A stretch of DNA of 64,000 nucleotides from a virus. Below are positions 20,872 to 50,123 of this stretch, one piece after another. Position 1 is the first letter of the stretch; each line of letters opens with the position of its first letter. The stretch is from positions 22,108-86,107 of IMG/VR virus record IMGVR_UViG_3300036466_000273; one strand, 5' to 3'. A program made the position numbers and the translations under genes. The notes beneath the pieces are model-generated. The model did no database searches and had not been told where the DNA came from. It saw only the letters and a list, made by a program, of their open reading frames with translations.

Positions 20872-22660
20872 AGAGTTAAAATGGGATAACTGCTTCAGTT
20901 ATGGAGTTGGTAATTCTCTTAGGCTTGATGGTGATTCCCTCACTCAGCTAGTAGCAGAGAATGGCAGCGGAAAATCCTCTATACCTCTCATTCTTGAAGA
21001 AGTGCTATTCAACAAAAACTTCAAAGGAATCAAAAAGGCGGATATTCCCAACAGGGCAGGGGATGGTACATATAGTATTTCATTATCTTTTGAAGTCGAC
21101 GGAGAAGACTATTTAGTTGATTTAAAACGTACTAAAAGTATCAAACTGAAGCTGTTCAAGAATGGGAAGGATATCTCTAGTCATACTGCTACTAGCACTT
21201 TTAAGCAGATTCAAGAAATATTAAAAATTGACTATAAAACATTCACCCAACTAGTCTACCAAGGCAATAACTCAGGGCTTCAATTCCTCACTGCTACCGA
21301 TACAACTAGAAAGAAATTTTTAATAGAACTCTTAGGGCTGGAAAAATATGTTGAGTATTATGAAACTTTTAAAGATGTGGCGAGGGAAACAAATATTTCA
21401 GTTTCTGCGCTTGAGTCTAAGTGTGAAACTATTAAAGGCTGGCTTGAAGATAATAAACTAAAAGACGATAGTGAGTGGGAAATTCAAGAAATTAATATAA
21501 GTACTGAACACTTAGAGAAAGAATTAGCTGAATTAAAAGTATCAAAAGACAACATAGAACAGACTAATCGTAAAATTACCTCTAATAACAGTAACAAGAA
21601 GCGTCTAGATGAGCTTAGTAATAAACCTAAGATTACTACTGAAACTACTAAAATAGATACGTCTAGTATTAACTCTGAAATAGGCGGTTTAAAATCTGAG
21701 CAAAGGACAATTAAAGCTCAAGTAGATAAAGTTAAGTCTGTAAACCAAGAATGCCCTACCTGTAAGCAGAAAGTTTCTGAAGAGTTTAAAGAAAACTACA
21801 TTTCTAGTAAACGAGAAGAATTTAACAAGCTAAAAGAAAAGCTTGAAAAGCTTAAAACTGAACTAAAGGGTGCACAAGAACATAATAAAGCAATAGAAGC
21901 CCAACAAGCAAGAGACAAAGAGTTTGAAAAAATCTACCAAACCATTGATAGCTCTCTCCCAGAAGAACTGCTAGTAAAAGATGACCTTGAAGAACAAATA
22001 CAGGCTCTCACTTCTAAGATTAAGGAACAGCGTAGTAAATTAAACACTATAATCGCTAAAAATCAAGAAGCTGAGCGGCATAATACCAAGGTTAAGTTAT
22101 ACAAAGAACAGAGCGCAAGTTATCTTACTAAACTAAAAGAAGCTGAAGAAGAGCTAAAGGAAGTAAAACATTATCGTAAAAGCGTAGAATTGCTTAAAAA
22201 AGCATTCTCTACTAATGGTTTATTAGCGTATAAGATAGAAAATCTTGTAAAAGAGTTGGAGGATTTAGCTAATACTTATTTAGCTGAGTTAAGCGACGGT
22301 AGATTTACTATAGACTTCTTTGTTGAAAAAGACAAGCTAAATATCAATATTACAGATGAAGGCAAAGATACGCTAATCACCGCTCTTTCCAGCGGAGAAT
22401 TAGCACGGGTTAATATAGCTACTCTATTAGCGATAAGAAGTCTAATGAATAGTATTTCTAAATCTAGGATAAATACTTTATTCTTGGATGAAATTATTAA
22501 TACACTAGACGAGTTTGGTAGAGAGAAGTTAATTGAAGTACTTTCTAAAGAAAAGAACTTAAATAGTTTTGTCGTATCACACGGCTGGGAACATCCGATG
22601 CTAACTAAAGTAGGGATTAGCAAGGAGGAAGGAATAAGTAGAATAGACTATGGCGGTTGA
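20858..22660 (+). CDS. SbcC-like ATPase subunit (T5 D13-like)
   Basis: The 600-residue Rad50/SbcC-type protein has Walker A ENGSGKSS at about residues 33-40, long coiled-coil arms on either side of a zinc hook CPTC at about 298, the ABC signature LSSGELARVNIA at about 509, and Walker B TLFLDEIINTL at about 541. The coils are short compared with E. coli SbcC, as usual in phages. It acts with the SbcD-like nuclease. Its 3' end overlaps the D14-like gene by 11 bp. Confidence 0.92.
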   Translation: MIIFKELKWDNCFSYGVGNSLRLDGDSLTQLVAENGSGKSSIPLILEEVLFNKNFKGIKKADIPNRAGDGTYSISLSFEVDGEDYLVDLKRTKSIKLKLFKNGKDISSHTATSTFKQIQEILKIDYKTFTQLVYQGNNSGLQFLTATDTTRKKFLIELLGLEKYVEYYETFKDVARETNISVSALESKCETIKGWLEDNKLKDDSEWEIQEINISTEHLEKELAELKVSKDNIEQTNRKITSNNSNKKRLDELSNKPKITTETTKIDTSSINSEIGGLKSEQRTIKAQVDKVKSVNQECPTCKQKVSEEFKENYISSKREEFNKLKEKLEKLKTELKGAQEHNKAIEAQQARDKEFEKIYQTIDSSLPEELLVKDDLEEQIQALTSKIKEQRSKLNTIIAKNQEAERHNTKVKLYKEQSASYLTKLKEAEEELKEVKHYRKSVELLKKAFSTNGLLAYKIENLVKELEDLANTYLAELSDGRFTIDFFVEKDKLNINITDEGKDTLITALSSGELARVNIATLLAIRSLMNSISKSRINTLFLDEIINTLDEFGREKLIEVLSKEKNLNSFVVSHGWEHPMLTKVGISKEEGISRIDYGG

Positions 22661-43920: not shown

Positions 43921-43951
43921 TTTCTTTCCTCTCTAATTACTGATATATTTA

Positions 43952-44407
43952 TCAGTACCTAATCTCACAAGTGACTTCTCCAACCCCTAAGGGCTCTAGA
44001 ACACCTTCATCTGTTTCGATTGAGATTATTGATATTTGCTGTGTTGTTTGAGAAGTTCCTTGTCTATCTTTATAGACTAACCGACTTTTCTCTTCTAACA
44101 CAGTCTCTACATCTTCTATAAGACCTTCTAAAGCTAAAACTGCATCTTCTTCATTAACATAGCATCGTACAGTTACATTTAAGAATCTATCTTTATACCC
44201 AGCTCCTTGGTACTCCCTAGTCTCAGCTCCGGCGCTTAGATGAATTGCTGGGAATACTTCTACCTCATCCCAAAATTTAAGGCGGGGGGATACTTGCCCA
44301 TCAATATCTGTGTTGTAATTACCAGACCCGTCAATGGCTTTTAATTCTTCAGCTAAAGCGTAAACTATTGCCATCCGCCTACTTGTATATTCTCTAGTAA
44401 CTTCCAT
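43952..44407 (-). CDS. tail terminator protein
   Basis: The 151-residue protein has a tail-terminator/minor tail U-like layout: an N-terminal helix (RRMAIVYALAEELKAIDGSG), central strands (FPAIHLSAGAE, LNVTVRCYVNEED), a helix (ALEGLIEDVETVLEEKSRL) and a final strand pair (ISIISIETDEGVLEPLGVGEVTCEIRY). It sits between the neck gene and tail tube gene as T5 p143 does. It caps the finished tube and joins it to the head. It shares a base with the next upstream gene. Confidence 0.68.
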   Translation of the reverse strand: MEVTREYTSRRMAIVYALAEELKAIDGSGNYNTDIDGQVSPRLKFWDEVEVFPAIHLSAGAETREYQGAGYKDRFLNVTVRCYVNEEDAVLALEGLIEDVETVLEEKSRLVYKDRQGTSQTTQQISIISIETDEGVLEPLGVGEVTCEIRY

Positions 44408-46250: not shown

Positions 46251-46279
46251 AAAAACCTAGGAGTCATAAGACTCCTAGG
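46251..46279 (-). terminator. terminator after the capsid gene
   Basis: A perfect 10-bp stem CCTAGGAGTC-ATAA-GACTCCTAGG (46256-46279) is followed on the minus strand by TTTTTAC. It lies between the protease-capsid fusion and the connector gene, and should raise capsid over neck expression. Confidence 0.85.
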
Positions 46280-46292
46280 CTCCCTTTATATA

Positions 46293-48287
46293 TTATACTC
46301 CGCTATACTGCAGTGCATATTTAGCAGAGGCACCATCAATGATGTCGATGAAACCCATACGCTGTGAAGCTACGAGAACGCGACGTTGGTTAGAAACTTC
46401 GTAGTCGCTCTCTACAGTCATTCCACGTAGGCGAGGAATAACAAAGTTACGAGTGTTAACCGCTACAGCGTTGAACTTGCCAGCCGCTTTAGCTGCAAAC
46501 TCGTCACAAACTACAACGTTGGAGCCGAATACGCTACCTACGCGACCAGTAAGCTTAGTAGCCATGCTCTGACCAACAAGGTTAGCATCCTGGAATTCTG
46601 CATCATCAATCAGGTTGTAGTATGCTTCCTGAGATACGATGTAAATTACATCTTCAGGACGCAGACCGTATTTACCCATATTCTTGCGGAGGTTAAATAG
46701 GTCAGCAGTAGTGATAACATCGTCAGTAGTAAACCCAGTAGCTGCAGGCTGTACAGTCTGACCATCATCAGCGGCTAGTTTTACCAGACCGTCGAAAGAT
46801 GCTCCAGAAGTACCGAAAGCACCATCAGCATGGTTACCCAGAAGGATAGCATTTTCTACTGCACGTGCGTGAGAACGAATCATAGACTCGCGAATCAGAG
46901 GCAGAATAGGCAGAATTGCATCCTCTTCAGTCTCATTACCAAGGTAAGAAACTGACATAAGCTTCTTGGTAGAAACTGTGCGCTCTTGCAGGGTAACACC
47001 AGCATTATCGCCATAGGTAGCAGAACGCTCGTCCAAGTTACCGTTCGGTGCAGTAGCAGAAGTAGTCTGTGTAGACACAAACTCGGCATAGCCAGCATCC
47101 GGCAGGATAGGCATAATCATGGTAGCAGAGTTCATAGGCAGTTCGCGGAACATAGGAGCAAGAATCAGCTCATTCTGAATGTCACGCTCGATCTTAGTAG
47201 ATACGATCTGCTCGAAATCTTCGCTAGAAACCTGAACACCAGACATAGTATTGACTTTCTCAACCATATCTTTGGCGTACTTAGTATTCCAGCCTTTACC
47301 AGTAGCGAGACCAAGTACAAAAGTATCAGTCAGCTCTTCTTCATGGCTCTTCTTCCAATCTCCACCTTCACTACGGTCAGCAAAGTGGCGCTTAGAATCA
47401 CGCATTTTAGTAATCTCTTCAGATTTACTAGAAAGCTCGTCTTTCAGCTCTGCAACAATGCTTTCCAGAGCTTCGTTTTTCTCACTGAAACGCTTCTCAA
47501 CGTCTTCCATGAGTTTCTCAGCAGAGGTTTTAACCTTTACATCAAACTCTTTCTGAGCTTTTTCAGCCTCAGCAGCAGCTTTTGCATCTTCAGCAGCTTT
47601 AGCACTCTGTGCTTCAGTGATAGCAGAAGCAGTTTTTGTTGCTACGTCATCCATAAGTTTCTGTAGTTCTTTGGGATCCATTTCGTTTTTCTCCTTTGAA
47701 TGTGACTTATTGTCACTGTCTGCCGAATCTACAGCTGAATCTTGAGCATTTACTGAATCTTCAGCTGGTTGCTCGGCTGTGTCGACAATGTCGTTAATAA
47801 ATTTCTTGTACTCTTCACTAGAGTCAAAAGATTTAGATACTGAGAATACAGCATCCTGATTGCACGGTACTGAGACTACTGATACTTCGTAAAGTTCAGC
47901 TTCTTTAATTACAAACAAGTCTGAAGCAGAATCGTAATCTGCATCTTTTACCATAAAGCCTACAGAAAAGGCTTTCAGTACATCATCTTCGATAAGGTCA
48001 GCTACATTATCAGCAGCCTTTCTAGAAATTTCAGCTTCAATCTCTAATCCTTTATCAGTGATTTCGATGCTAGTAGTGCGACCAATCGGCTTATCATAGT
48101 TATGGTTAAAAAGTAGAATTGGATTCTTTTGGTAATCCGCTATACCTTTGCTCCAAGCCTCTGGTAGTATTACGTCTCCAGCGCGGTCAGTATCATTAGT
48201 ACTAGCATAACCTTTGATCTTTACTTTTTCCTCACCAACCTCTTTCTTGGTTAGCTGAGTTTTAAGAAAGAGCTTCTTATTCAGCAT
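46293..48287 (-). CDS. prohead protease-major capsid protein fusion (HK97 fold)
   Basis: The 664-residue frame joins two proteins. Residues about 1-150 are a U35-type prohead protease: KGYASTNDTDRAGDVI, FNHNYDKPIGRT with the His, and YEVSVVSVP with the Ser. A linker rich in S, D and E (about 165-200) leads to an alanine-lysine coiled coil (scaffold-like delta domain, about 205-310) and an HK97-type major capsid protein from about 320 (IVSTKIERDIQNE, then LDERSATY, FNLRKNMGKYGLRPED, and VSNQRRVLVASQRMGF). An internal start at residue 203 allows separate capsid synthesis. No frameshift or stop separates the two parts. Confidence 0.85.
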   Translation of the reverse strand: MLNKKLFLKTQLTKKEVGEEKVKIKGYASTNDTDRAGDVILPEAWSKGIADYQKNPILLFNHNYDKPIGRTTSIEITDKGLEIEAEISRKAADNVADLIEDDVLKAFSVGFMVKDADYDSASDLFVIKEAELYEVSVVSVPCNQDAVFSVSKSFDSSEEYKKFINDIVDTAEQPAEDSVNAQDSAVDSADSDNKSHSKEKNEMDPKELQKLMDDVATKTASAITEAQSAKAAEDAKAAAEAEKAQKEFDVKVKTSAEKLMEDVEKRFSEKNEALESIVAELKDELSSKSEEITKMRDSKRHFADRSEGGDWKKSHEEELTDTFVLGLATGKGWNTKYAKDMVEKVNTMSGVQVSSEDFEQIVSTKIERDIQNELILAPMFRELPMNSATMIMPILPDAGYAEFVSTQTTSATAPNGNLDERSATYGDNAGVTLQERTVSTKKLMSVSYLGNETEEDAILPILPLIRESMIRSHARAVENAILLGNHADGAFGTSGASFDGLVKLAADDGQTVQPAATGFTTDDVITTADLFNLRKNMGKYGLRPEDVIYIVSQEAYYNLIDDAEFQDANLVGQSMATKLTGRVGSVFGSNVVVCDEFAAKAAGKFNAVAVNTRNFVIPRLRGMTVESDYEVSNQRRVLVASQRMGFIDIIDGASAKYALQYSGV
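47678..47699 (-). promoter_or_regulatory. internal ribosome binding site and start for the capsid protein
   Basis: On the minus strand AAAGGAG is followed 9 nt later by ATG at 47679-47681, in frame, giving a 462-residue protein beginning MDPKELQKLMDDV. The site lies exactly between the protease linker and the scaffold-like coil. It would let the cell make more capsid subunits than protease fusions. Confidence 0.7.
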
Positions 48288-48552
48288 TATCCTTCTCCTT
48301 TATAGCTGCAAAGTTGGGTTTGGGACGTTCTTTAGGCTCTTCTTCTACTTGAATTTCTCCAATTTTCTCGTATTTTTCTGGAAAATTATAGCTAATAAGC
48401 TTATCAAGTCGAGACCATGAACCAATAGTCCTAGTAACTACTGCAGCCCGTATCGGAGTGTCATCACGTTTTGCATACTCACGTTTATCAAGAATTTCTC
48501 CAATCTCAATAAAGTAATCTGCAAGTTGTTCCAATACACGTTTCCTTGTCAT
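48277..48552 (-). CDS. small head protein of unknown role
   Basis: The 91-residue charged protein lies between portal and protease-capsid genes and overlaps both (4 and 11 bp). It is helical, with LADYFIEIGEILDKREYAKR and a proline- and glutamate-rich tail (VEEEPKERPKPNF). T5 also has a small head-region gene at about this position. It may bind portal or scaffold, but I recognise no family. Confidence 0.55.
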   Translation of the reverse strand: MTRKRVLEQLADYFIEIGEILDKREYAKRDDTPIRAAVVTRTIGSWSRLDKLISYNFPEKYEKIGEIQVEEEPKERPKPNFAAIKEKDNAE

Positions 48553-49754
48553 TCGTCTTCTCCTTCGGCGGGTCTTCCGCCCTCGGCGGGGTTTGCCGCA
48601 CTGCCTGCTATATTTGCTGGAATCCTAATCTCGTCGAGCCCATCAATTGGGTCTCTCCCTAGCTTCTCTCTAGCCTCGTTAGGAGTAATTACACCACCAT
48701 TAACTAATGAGGTAAGGTAACTAGATTGATCGCTAAGAGTAGGCTGCAAGGCAGGAGTATTAGTTGCATCCTCATGCACTTCATATCCAAAGAACCTTGA
48801 CAAACCATCATTAATCTTGCGAACAATGGGTAATACAGTTTCTAGGTAGTAAAGCTTATGATTCGGTGCAATATTAGCATTATTTCCTCCATCAAACAAA
48901 ATCGGAGGAACTCCTAAAGCCTTAAGAATAGTTTTTTCACAGTCTGAGCAGGCACTTTGAAAATCCAACTCTTTAAAATTTACATTTGATACAGAGTCAA
49001 TCTCTAACCCACCATCTAATATCATTGGGGAACGCCCCCCACTTTCTGGACGATAACGTAATCTCCAACTTTGTAGCAAACGTTCTTTTATTTTTTCACT
49101 AAGAGAATCTGGGCTCTTTAGTACTAATCCTGGTACAGCTCCATTATTAAAGAAGTTCTTCTGGAACTTACGAAGCTTAAGTAGCAAATCCATAGTATCT
49201 GAAGCTGCTTTAAGTCTTGAAGTTCCACGATATATTGATCTGAAAGAATTTTCTTTTATATGGATTATTTCGTCAGGACTGTAGTCAATAAGACCAGAAT
49301 AACTATAATGACTAACAAATGTTCGTTCATCAGTATGAATGGATACCTTATCAGCGGGGAGGTGGTACATATGAGCCCCGTCCCAGTAGATAAACATATT
49401 ACCATCAACTAGTAAATCTACAATTAAATTTCTTTTAAACGTGCTAACATCCTGAAAGGGGTTAGGCTCATACTTTAGTACTCTTTCAACAGTATTTTTC
49501 CTAACGCCTTTAACTACAGGGCTTACACCTTTTTGCTGATTACCTACAGCACATGGTAAGTCTGCTGAGTCATCAACAATCATATTAATTGCACGGTTTA
49601 CAATTTCAATGGACTCATACTGATTTCGATAATTGGTGGGGGAAGCGTGAGAATATATTTCACTACCTTCTCGTTGTCCGATTAGAGTTTGAGCTGGATT
49701 TAACTTTTCTTCAACTTCTTCAGTTTTGTTTTTTCTCCAGTTAAACAAGCCCAT
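48549..49754 (-). CDS. portal protein (HK97-type)
   Basis: The 401-residue protein matches the Phage_portal family: VNRAINMIVDDSADLPC, LLVDGNMFIYWDG, YSPDEIIHIKENSF, RGTSRLKAASDTMDLLLKLR, FFNNGAVPGLVL, and ILKALGVPPILFDGG, and ends with GGVITPNEAREKLGRDPIDG. It forms the dodecameric DNA entry ring at one head vertex. It follows the HNH gene by 14 bp overlap and precedes the small head gene. The tail is glycine- and glutamate-rich. Confidence 0.92.
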   Translation of the reverse strand: MGLFNWRKNKTEEVEEKLNPAQTLIGQREGSEIYSHASPTNYRNQYESIEIVNRAINMIVDDSADLPCAVGNQQKGVSPVVKGVRKNTVERVLKYEPNPFQDVSTFKRNLIVDLLVDGNMFIYWDGAHMYHLPADKVSIHTDERTFVSHYSYSGLIDYSPDEIIHIKENSFRSIYRGTSRLKAASDTMDLLLKLRKFQKNFFNNGAVPGLVLKSPDSLSEKIKERLLQSWRLRYRPESGGRSPMILDGGLEIDSVSNVNFKELDFQSACSDCEKTILKALGVPPILFDGGNNANIAPNHKLYYLETVLPIVRKINDGLSRFFGYEVHEDATNTPALQPTLSDQSSYLTSLVNGGVITPNEAREKLGRDPIDGLDEIRIPANIAGSAANPAEGGRPAEGEDE

Positions 49755-50106
49755 TTTTAATCCTTTGTTTTTCTACCCAGCGTTCCTGCTTTGCAGCAGT
49801 ACCAAGCCCGGGCTTCTGTCCATATACTTTATGCAGTCTACTGTGACAGCTTTTACATAAAGTAACAGTTTTATTATAAATTTGATCGTGGTGTTCTTCA
49901 ATAAAACGATCTCGATGTTCTACGATATCTGAAGGACTAATCTTCTCCTTACGCAACCATCGATCTAACATTGCAGTCATACTTGTATAGTGATGAAACT
50001 CTAACTCTTCATTAGCTCCGCACATTCTACAAACAGAATCTTTCGTGTAAGCTGACTTAGCTCGATCACGCACATACTTAACTGCATCTCTTTTTAGATT
50101 TGACAT
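49741..50106 (-). CDS. HNH endonuclease next to the portal gene
   Basis: I chose ATG 50106 (MSNLKRD) with AGGTGG 5 nt upstream; a GTG at 50115 is an alternative. The product (about 121 residues) has CRMCG, ELEFHHYTS, and VTLCKSCHSRLHKVYG: two zinc-binding CxxC pairs and the HH and H of the HNH site. HNH proteins beside terminase and portal genes are often needed for cutting and packaging in HK97-type phages. It has its own sigma70 promoter, so a mobile origin is also possible. Confidence 0.8.
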   Translation of the reverse strand: MSNLKRDAVKYVRDRAKSAYTKDSVCRMCGANEELEFHHYTSMTAMLDRWLRKEKISPSDIVEHRDRFIEEHHDQIYNKTVTLCKSCHSRLHKVYGQKPGLGTAAKQERWVEKQRIKNGLV

Positions 50107-50123
50107 TTCAACCACCTATAGAA

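Follow-up and report, generated by a model that had tools for sequence, protein, structure and literature searches.

How the right dose of head protease enters the procapsid is a long-standing question of phage assembly, and the locus described here raises it in a specific form, i.e., whether a single gene can supply protease and capsid alike. The window (the whole stretch of DNA analyzed) comprises 64,000 nt of the 86-kb IMG/VR record IMGVR_UViG_3300036466_000273, positions 22,108 to 86,107. A sequence-only reading had noticed in it a complete prohead protease and a complete HK97-type capsid protein in one uninterrupted frame, with a Shine-Dalgarno and ATG (47681) at the domain border. Both observations held: 664 codons are open, both Pfam domains scored over their cut-offs, and AAAGGAGA at 47690-47697 precedes an ATG in the frame of the fusion, with a GGAG-to-ATG gap of 9 nt. 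The features of the locus are as follows.

46293-48287, minus strand: fused prohead protease-capsid ORF, ATG start, 664 aa, 72.8 kDa, zero internal stops
48295-48301, minus strand: outer (fusion) Shine-Dalgarno AAAGGAG for ATG 48287, read directly from the sequence
47829-48248, minus strand: Peptidase_S78 prohead protease domain, residues 14-153 (Pfam and alignment)
47682-47828, minus strand: linker, residues 154-202, frame open in all lineages (stop counts and structure prediction)
47702-47716, minus strand: RNA hairpin GUGAC-AAUAA-GUCAC, directly 5' of the internal Shine-Dalgarno (structure signal, and covariation in relatives)
47690-47697, minus strand: internal Shine-Dalgarno AAAGGAGA (direct reading and lineage conservation)
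46293-47681, minus strand: nested capsid-precursor ORF from internal ATG 47681, 462 aa, 50.4 kDa
47256-47681, minus strand: delta (scaffold-like) domain, residues 203-344, helical (boundary from alignment to mature T5 pb8, 5tjt)
46296-47255, minus strand: mature capsid region with HK97 fold, residues 345-664, 34.6 kDa (alignment and model)
46251-46279, minus strand: terminator-like hairpin CCTAGGAGTC-TTAT-GACTCCTAGG-TTTTT past the capsid stop

The masses calculated for the fusion and for the 462-aa internal-start product (72.8 and 50.4 kDa) agree with the roughly 73 and 50 kDa anticipated earlier. Neighboring genes stand in T5 order, i.e., portal, a 91-aa ORF, head completion protein, a T5 p143-like protein, tail terminator and tail tube. 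The strong terminator-like hairpin lies between the capsid and head completion genes; a similar structure of different sequence was found in most of 23 lineages, and in T5 a terminator is annotated at the counterpart position. An HNH endonuclease-like ORF, just under the Pfam cut-off, was also seen immediately upstream of the portal gene (49741-50115, minus strand).

The protease part was identified by Pfam as Peptidase_S78 (residues 14-153, E 9e-22, 78.4 bits against a cut-off of 21), and its TIGR01543 score of 82.6 bits (cut-off 59) likewise places it in the S78 family. The candidate catalytic residues His62 and Ser108 were invariant in 71 aligned fusions, and both domains of the fusion are intact, the S78 part with predicted catalytic activity. 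At the other end, Phage_capsid matched residues 369-646 (E 2e-9, over the curated cut-off). The capsid part was homologous to both the precursor and mature chains of T5 pb8, with 8ho3 aligning over residues 209-646 (E 5e-56), and Met1 of the T5-like capsid precursor aligned with the internal Met of the fusion. Alignments begin at residue 209 for solved T5-type precursors but at residue 345 for 5tjt, the mature T5 chain, so that residues 203-344 were taken to be the delta domain, and cleavage is predicted near K344/V345. An AlphaFold model built on an alignment of 71 fused relatives (a 10-row version was poor and was replaced) gave a confident protease (about residues 13-138), weakly predicted helices at 205-299 and a confident capsid (310-664), with a linker that was mostly disordered by prediction (pLDDT < 50 at 143-154 and 167-208). 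The solved structures ranked highest by Foldseek for the predicted capsid fold were the DT57C and T5 capsids. The protein thus has the features of a T5 pb8-type capsid, i.e., homology across the delta and mature domains and the HK97 fold.

Used as a query against viral contigs, the fusion protein of the window matched at least 599 relatives. Among the loci kept from the matches listed, at least 138 (at least 108 of them distinct) were fused in one open frame and 36 were separate. The separate loci came from Demerecviridae, including T5, and from closely related environmental phages; their capsid frame was offset by 0, 1 or 2. All Demerecviridae sampled had two genes, whereas the window has a single ORF in place of that two-gene head module. 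A scan of GTDB genomes added seven loci in metagenome bins, all seven fused; every member of the fused clade that we found was metagenomic, and a search of the phage collection yielded no isolate with a T5-like fusion. These bins (L185-L191) were assigned to Gammaproteobacteria, Halieaceae and one Parcubacteria MAG, which may be a weak clue to the host or may reflect noise in the binning. On the capsid tree the fused and separate states were divided by one change with full support, with no reversion within the fused clade, and a fused locus (L124) was sister of Demerecviridae in that tree. In this tree, as in a protease tree, the branches leading to the outgroups were too long to place the root or to polarize the change.

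Several fused ORFs (L125, L128, L158, L160, L011, L016, L070) carried an N-terminal extension of up to about 390 residues, and in all three that were scanned (L125, L158, L011) Pfam detected an Hva1_TUDOR domain. The idea that the portal is fused as well in the very long ORFs (L125, L158) was rejected, given that the extension is Hva1_TUDOR and contains no portal.

Selection on the linker and on the internal start was assessed in 30 distinct lineages. Between the end of the protease profile and the internal ATG (967 codons in total, 15-73 each), there were no in-frame stops, whereas the two alternative frames contained 44 and 126. By this comparison the open linker frame, i.e., the fusion itself, appears to be under selection. 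For the start, every in-frame ATG no more than 16 codons from the capsid profile start was considered and scored for a Shine-Dalgarno at working distance, with synonymous codon shuffles that keep each gene's own usage as the null. A border Shine-Dalgarno-ATG was present in 29 of the 30 lineages against 9.8 expected (P about 1e-19 assuming independent lineages, although combined lineage statistics of this kind overstate independence because lineages share ancestry); L176 was the lineage without a clear internal Shine-Dalgarno. Elsewhere in the fused ORFs an in-frame ATG with a Shine-Dalgarno occurred in 3.5% of 32-codon windows. This choice-free test supersedes an earlier count that used a crude choice of ATG (89/107). 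In 40 aligned marine loci GGAGA was invariant, while the codon before GAG varied (e.g., AAG, ATG, ACG); remoter lineages had other Shine-Dalgarno cores (AAGGA, GAGG) that encode different residues. The internal start, too, appears to be selected, and both products look selected on this comparative evidence.

The region also contains a hairpin near the internal start that was absent from the sequence-only reading. It was present in about 27 of the 30 lineages (L004 and L126 had no clear hairpin), its 3' end lying mostly 11-21 nt ahead of the ATG. Compared with synonymous shuffles, the structure signal was strongest in the interval -45 to -1, where Stouffer values were -5.4 to -7.0; a second, smaller maximum (Stouffer about -3) fell at -75 to -31, and most other windows were near zero. 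Covariation in the aligned marine loci was 0.364, versus 0.096 in shuffled and at most 0.082 in slid controls, and one stem pair was AU in 19 sequences and CG in 19, with none broken. The signal was found again (Stouffer -4.9) in held-out MAG loci not used in defining the hairpin. Rfam gave no match near the hairpin and internal start site.

Two-gene T5-like phages were likewise structured where the protease gene ends (Stouffer -4.3), and T5 itself showed folding upstream of its capsid start (z -2.2). Since two-gene relatives including T5 have similar structure there, the element is a general trait of T5-like capsid expression and no consequence of fusion, and a role in compensating for loss of the stop codon was rejected on the same observation. 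At the portal, tail terminator, tail tube and fusion starts there was little structure (z -0.14 to -0.37); some was seen at the start of the small ORF that precedes the protease (lineage mean z -0.83), and the start of the head completion gene was preceded by the terminator-like hairpin. In the window, a GC-rich hairpin (48562-48597, minus strand) precedes the 91-aa ORF that separates the portal gene from the fusion, possibly marking another regulated start. A further one (43930-43965, minus strand) lies ahead of the tail tube Shine-Dalgarno, in only the window genome and its nearest relatives. The idea that such hairpins generally mark high-copy genes was rejected, as tail tube starts overall gave z -0.18 despite the window's own.

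Taken together, these data make it probable, in our assessment, that the locus is a nested, lambda C/Nu3-like head gene of an uncultured T5-like clade that encodes a protease-capsid fusion and a free capsid precursor. The proposal that one gene may make both products thereby has good support from comparative evidence, in the form of a conserved open linker and an internal Shine-Dalgarno-ATG throughout a deep clade. The sequences show the fused frame and its conservation, with selection acting on the open linker, the internal start and the hairpin; from them we infer two proteins in vivo, their ratio, their co-assembly, the cleavage site and the role of the hairpin. Initiation at ATG 48287 would yield the 72.8-kDa protease-linker-delta-capsid fusion and initiation at the internal ATG 47681 the 50.4-kDa delta-capsid precursor. 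Because the two would co-assemble by their common delta and capsid domains, each fusion should bring one protease into the procapsid. There, the S78 protease would cut at the delta/capsid border (near K344/V345), leaving an identical 34.6-kDa mature subunit from both products, and would free itself. That the fusion is minor and the free capsid major, with the protease taken up through its own capsid domain, is a reasonable inference by analogy and in line with the earlier proposal, although the fusion need not be minor since the outer Shine-Dalgarno is strong too.

Other readings of the fused frame must be set against this one. An assembly or sequencing artefact masking a stop codon or a frameshift at the junction of two genes, a possibility raised with the original observation, can be regarded as refuted: the frame is equally uninterrupted in at least 108 distinct environmental and seven MAG loci, more than 100 different contigs whose identity ranges over 38-96%, and nothing was found in favor of an artefact. 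It is also conceivable that the outer start alone is used, so that all capsid subunits are made fused, the protease excises itself and the internal Shine-Dalgarno is incidental. The strong Shine-Dalgarno at the outer start fits such a polyprotein, as does the behavior of HK97, whose protease acts on the delta domain of the capsid protein. We nevertheless consider it improbable, given that a border Shine-Dalgarno-ATG three times as frequent as the shuffles predict and a hairpin at the internal start are both hard to explain if that start is unused, that GGAGA stays invariant amid changing neighbor residues, and that the polyprotein implies one protease for each capsid subunit. The opposite reading, in which protease and capsid are the working products and the fusion is a harmless read-through of a lost stop without a role of its own, draws on the near relatives that use two separate genes in any of three frames. 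It earns equally little credence from us: the linker is open in every lineage despite its variable length and sequence while the other frames hold many stops, there are zero reversions inside the fused clade, and without a stop codon no free protease would arise unless the fusion were made. The nested gene with two products thus remains our preferred reading.

The role of the hairpin within that gene is a separate matter. We regard it as a conserved cis-element, most likely one that raises or protects capsid output; it may keep the ribosome-binding site open, or it may shield and stabilize a 5' end produced by cleavage of the transcript. Somewhat short of an even chance is given to the alternative that it serves mRNA processing, transcript stabilization or protein binding and is no part of the translation start. 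Such a site would account for its presence before the capsid start where a stop separates the genes, and together with the post-capsid terminator-like hairpin it would bracket the capsid mRNA; however, its 3' end lies 11-21 nt from the ATG, tight against the ribosome-binding site. More broadly, we tentatively suggest, with about the same reserve, that all T5-like phages share a short hairpin before the capsid start by which the ratio of capsid to protease is set, and that in the uncultured sister group, where the stop is absent, hairpin and internal initiation alone meter a self-encapsidating fusion. The role of the hairpin is directly testable because laboratory T5-like phages are also structured upstream of the capsid start.

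Fusions of protease and capsid have precedents (Gifsy-2, MD8, SA-C12, NF045541, PHROG 617 and 4523). In the open literature searched, we found no described T5-like protease-capsid fusion. As far as these searches reach, the clade-wide S78-capsid fusion in T5-like phages, the comparative evidence for a nested start and the conserved hairpin appear to be new. The arrangement is real, conserved and mechanistically informative: a natural, clade-wide fusion with a nested start would be a built-in answer to protease dosing, open to simple expression tests. It also carries a warning for annotation, in that a gene of this widespread fused clade may bear one product name only, as in UniProt, where a 656-aa protein related to the fusion is entered simply as 'Prohead protease'.

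The closest known system is that of T5 and other Demerecviridae, which share with the window the gene order (portal, small ORF, protease, capsid, head completion), a homologous protease, a capsid with a delta domain and RNA structure ahead of the capsid start. In these phages, however, a stop divides two genes in frames 0, 1 or 2, where the window has one ORF; in T5, to which the sequence-only reading had likewise ascribed separate genes, they are T5.150 (protease) and T5.149 (pb8), which differ in frame and are separated by 17 nt. Among named families, NCBIfam NF045541 and PHROG 617 and 4523 resemble the window protein in being protease/capsid or 'major head and protease' families. The PHROG 617 alignment spans residues 12-635, whereas NF045541 matched the protease part only, at 51.5 bits against a cut-off of 525, which places the protein outside that family.

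The Gifsy-2 capsid gene is reportedly tripartite. Like the window, it has protease, scaffold and capsid in one ORF, with GAGGAG and an ATG at the protease/scaffold border, but its protease is of the CLP_protease (ClpP) type and its capsid of another family, so that the S78 fusion of the window is not of the Gifsy-2 type; no hairpin was found at the Gifsy-2 protease/scaffold border. In Gifsy-2 (L180, 22471-24558) and the prophage-type relatives L198 and L200, also fusions of a ClpP-type protease with scaffold and capsid, the in-frame Shine-Dalgarno-ATG falls at residue 221, at the protease border. MD8 gp5 also joins protease, scaffold and capsid in one ORF (PMC8508860); both phages are lambdoid and, unlike the window, not T5-like. 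The 729-aa major capsid protein of Lactobacillus phage SA-C12, a cultured phage, resembles the window protein in having S78 fused to Phage_capsid, but the similarity is distant and there is no Shine-Dalgarno-ATG at the border. In that gene (L201, 24521-26710, minus strand) AAGGAGG stands ahead of a TTG just past the protease domain. The Gifsy-2 and prophage-type cases suggest that nested starts recur in protease-capsid fusions. In lambda C/Nu3 the scaffold is made from an in-frame start within the protease gene, according to the portion of PMC8508860 that cites it, and Mu and PaMx73 likewise have internal starts in their protease genes (PMC4378225). The window shares with these systems an in-frame start in the protease gene, conserved with its Shine-Dalgarno at the protease border in all but one lineage and predicted to give two products, and a protease carried by a shared C-terminal part; whereas that part is a separate scaffold in lambda and Mu-type phages, in the window it would be the delta-capsid protein itself.
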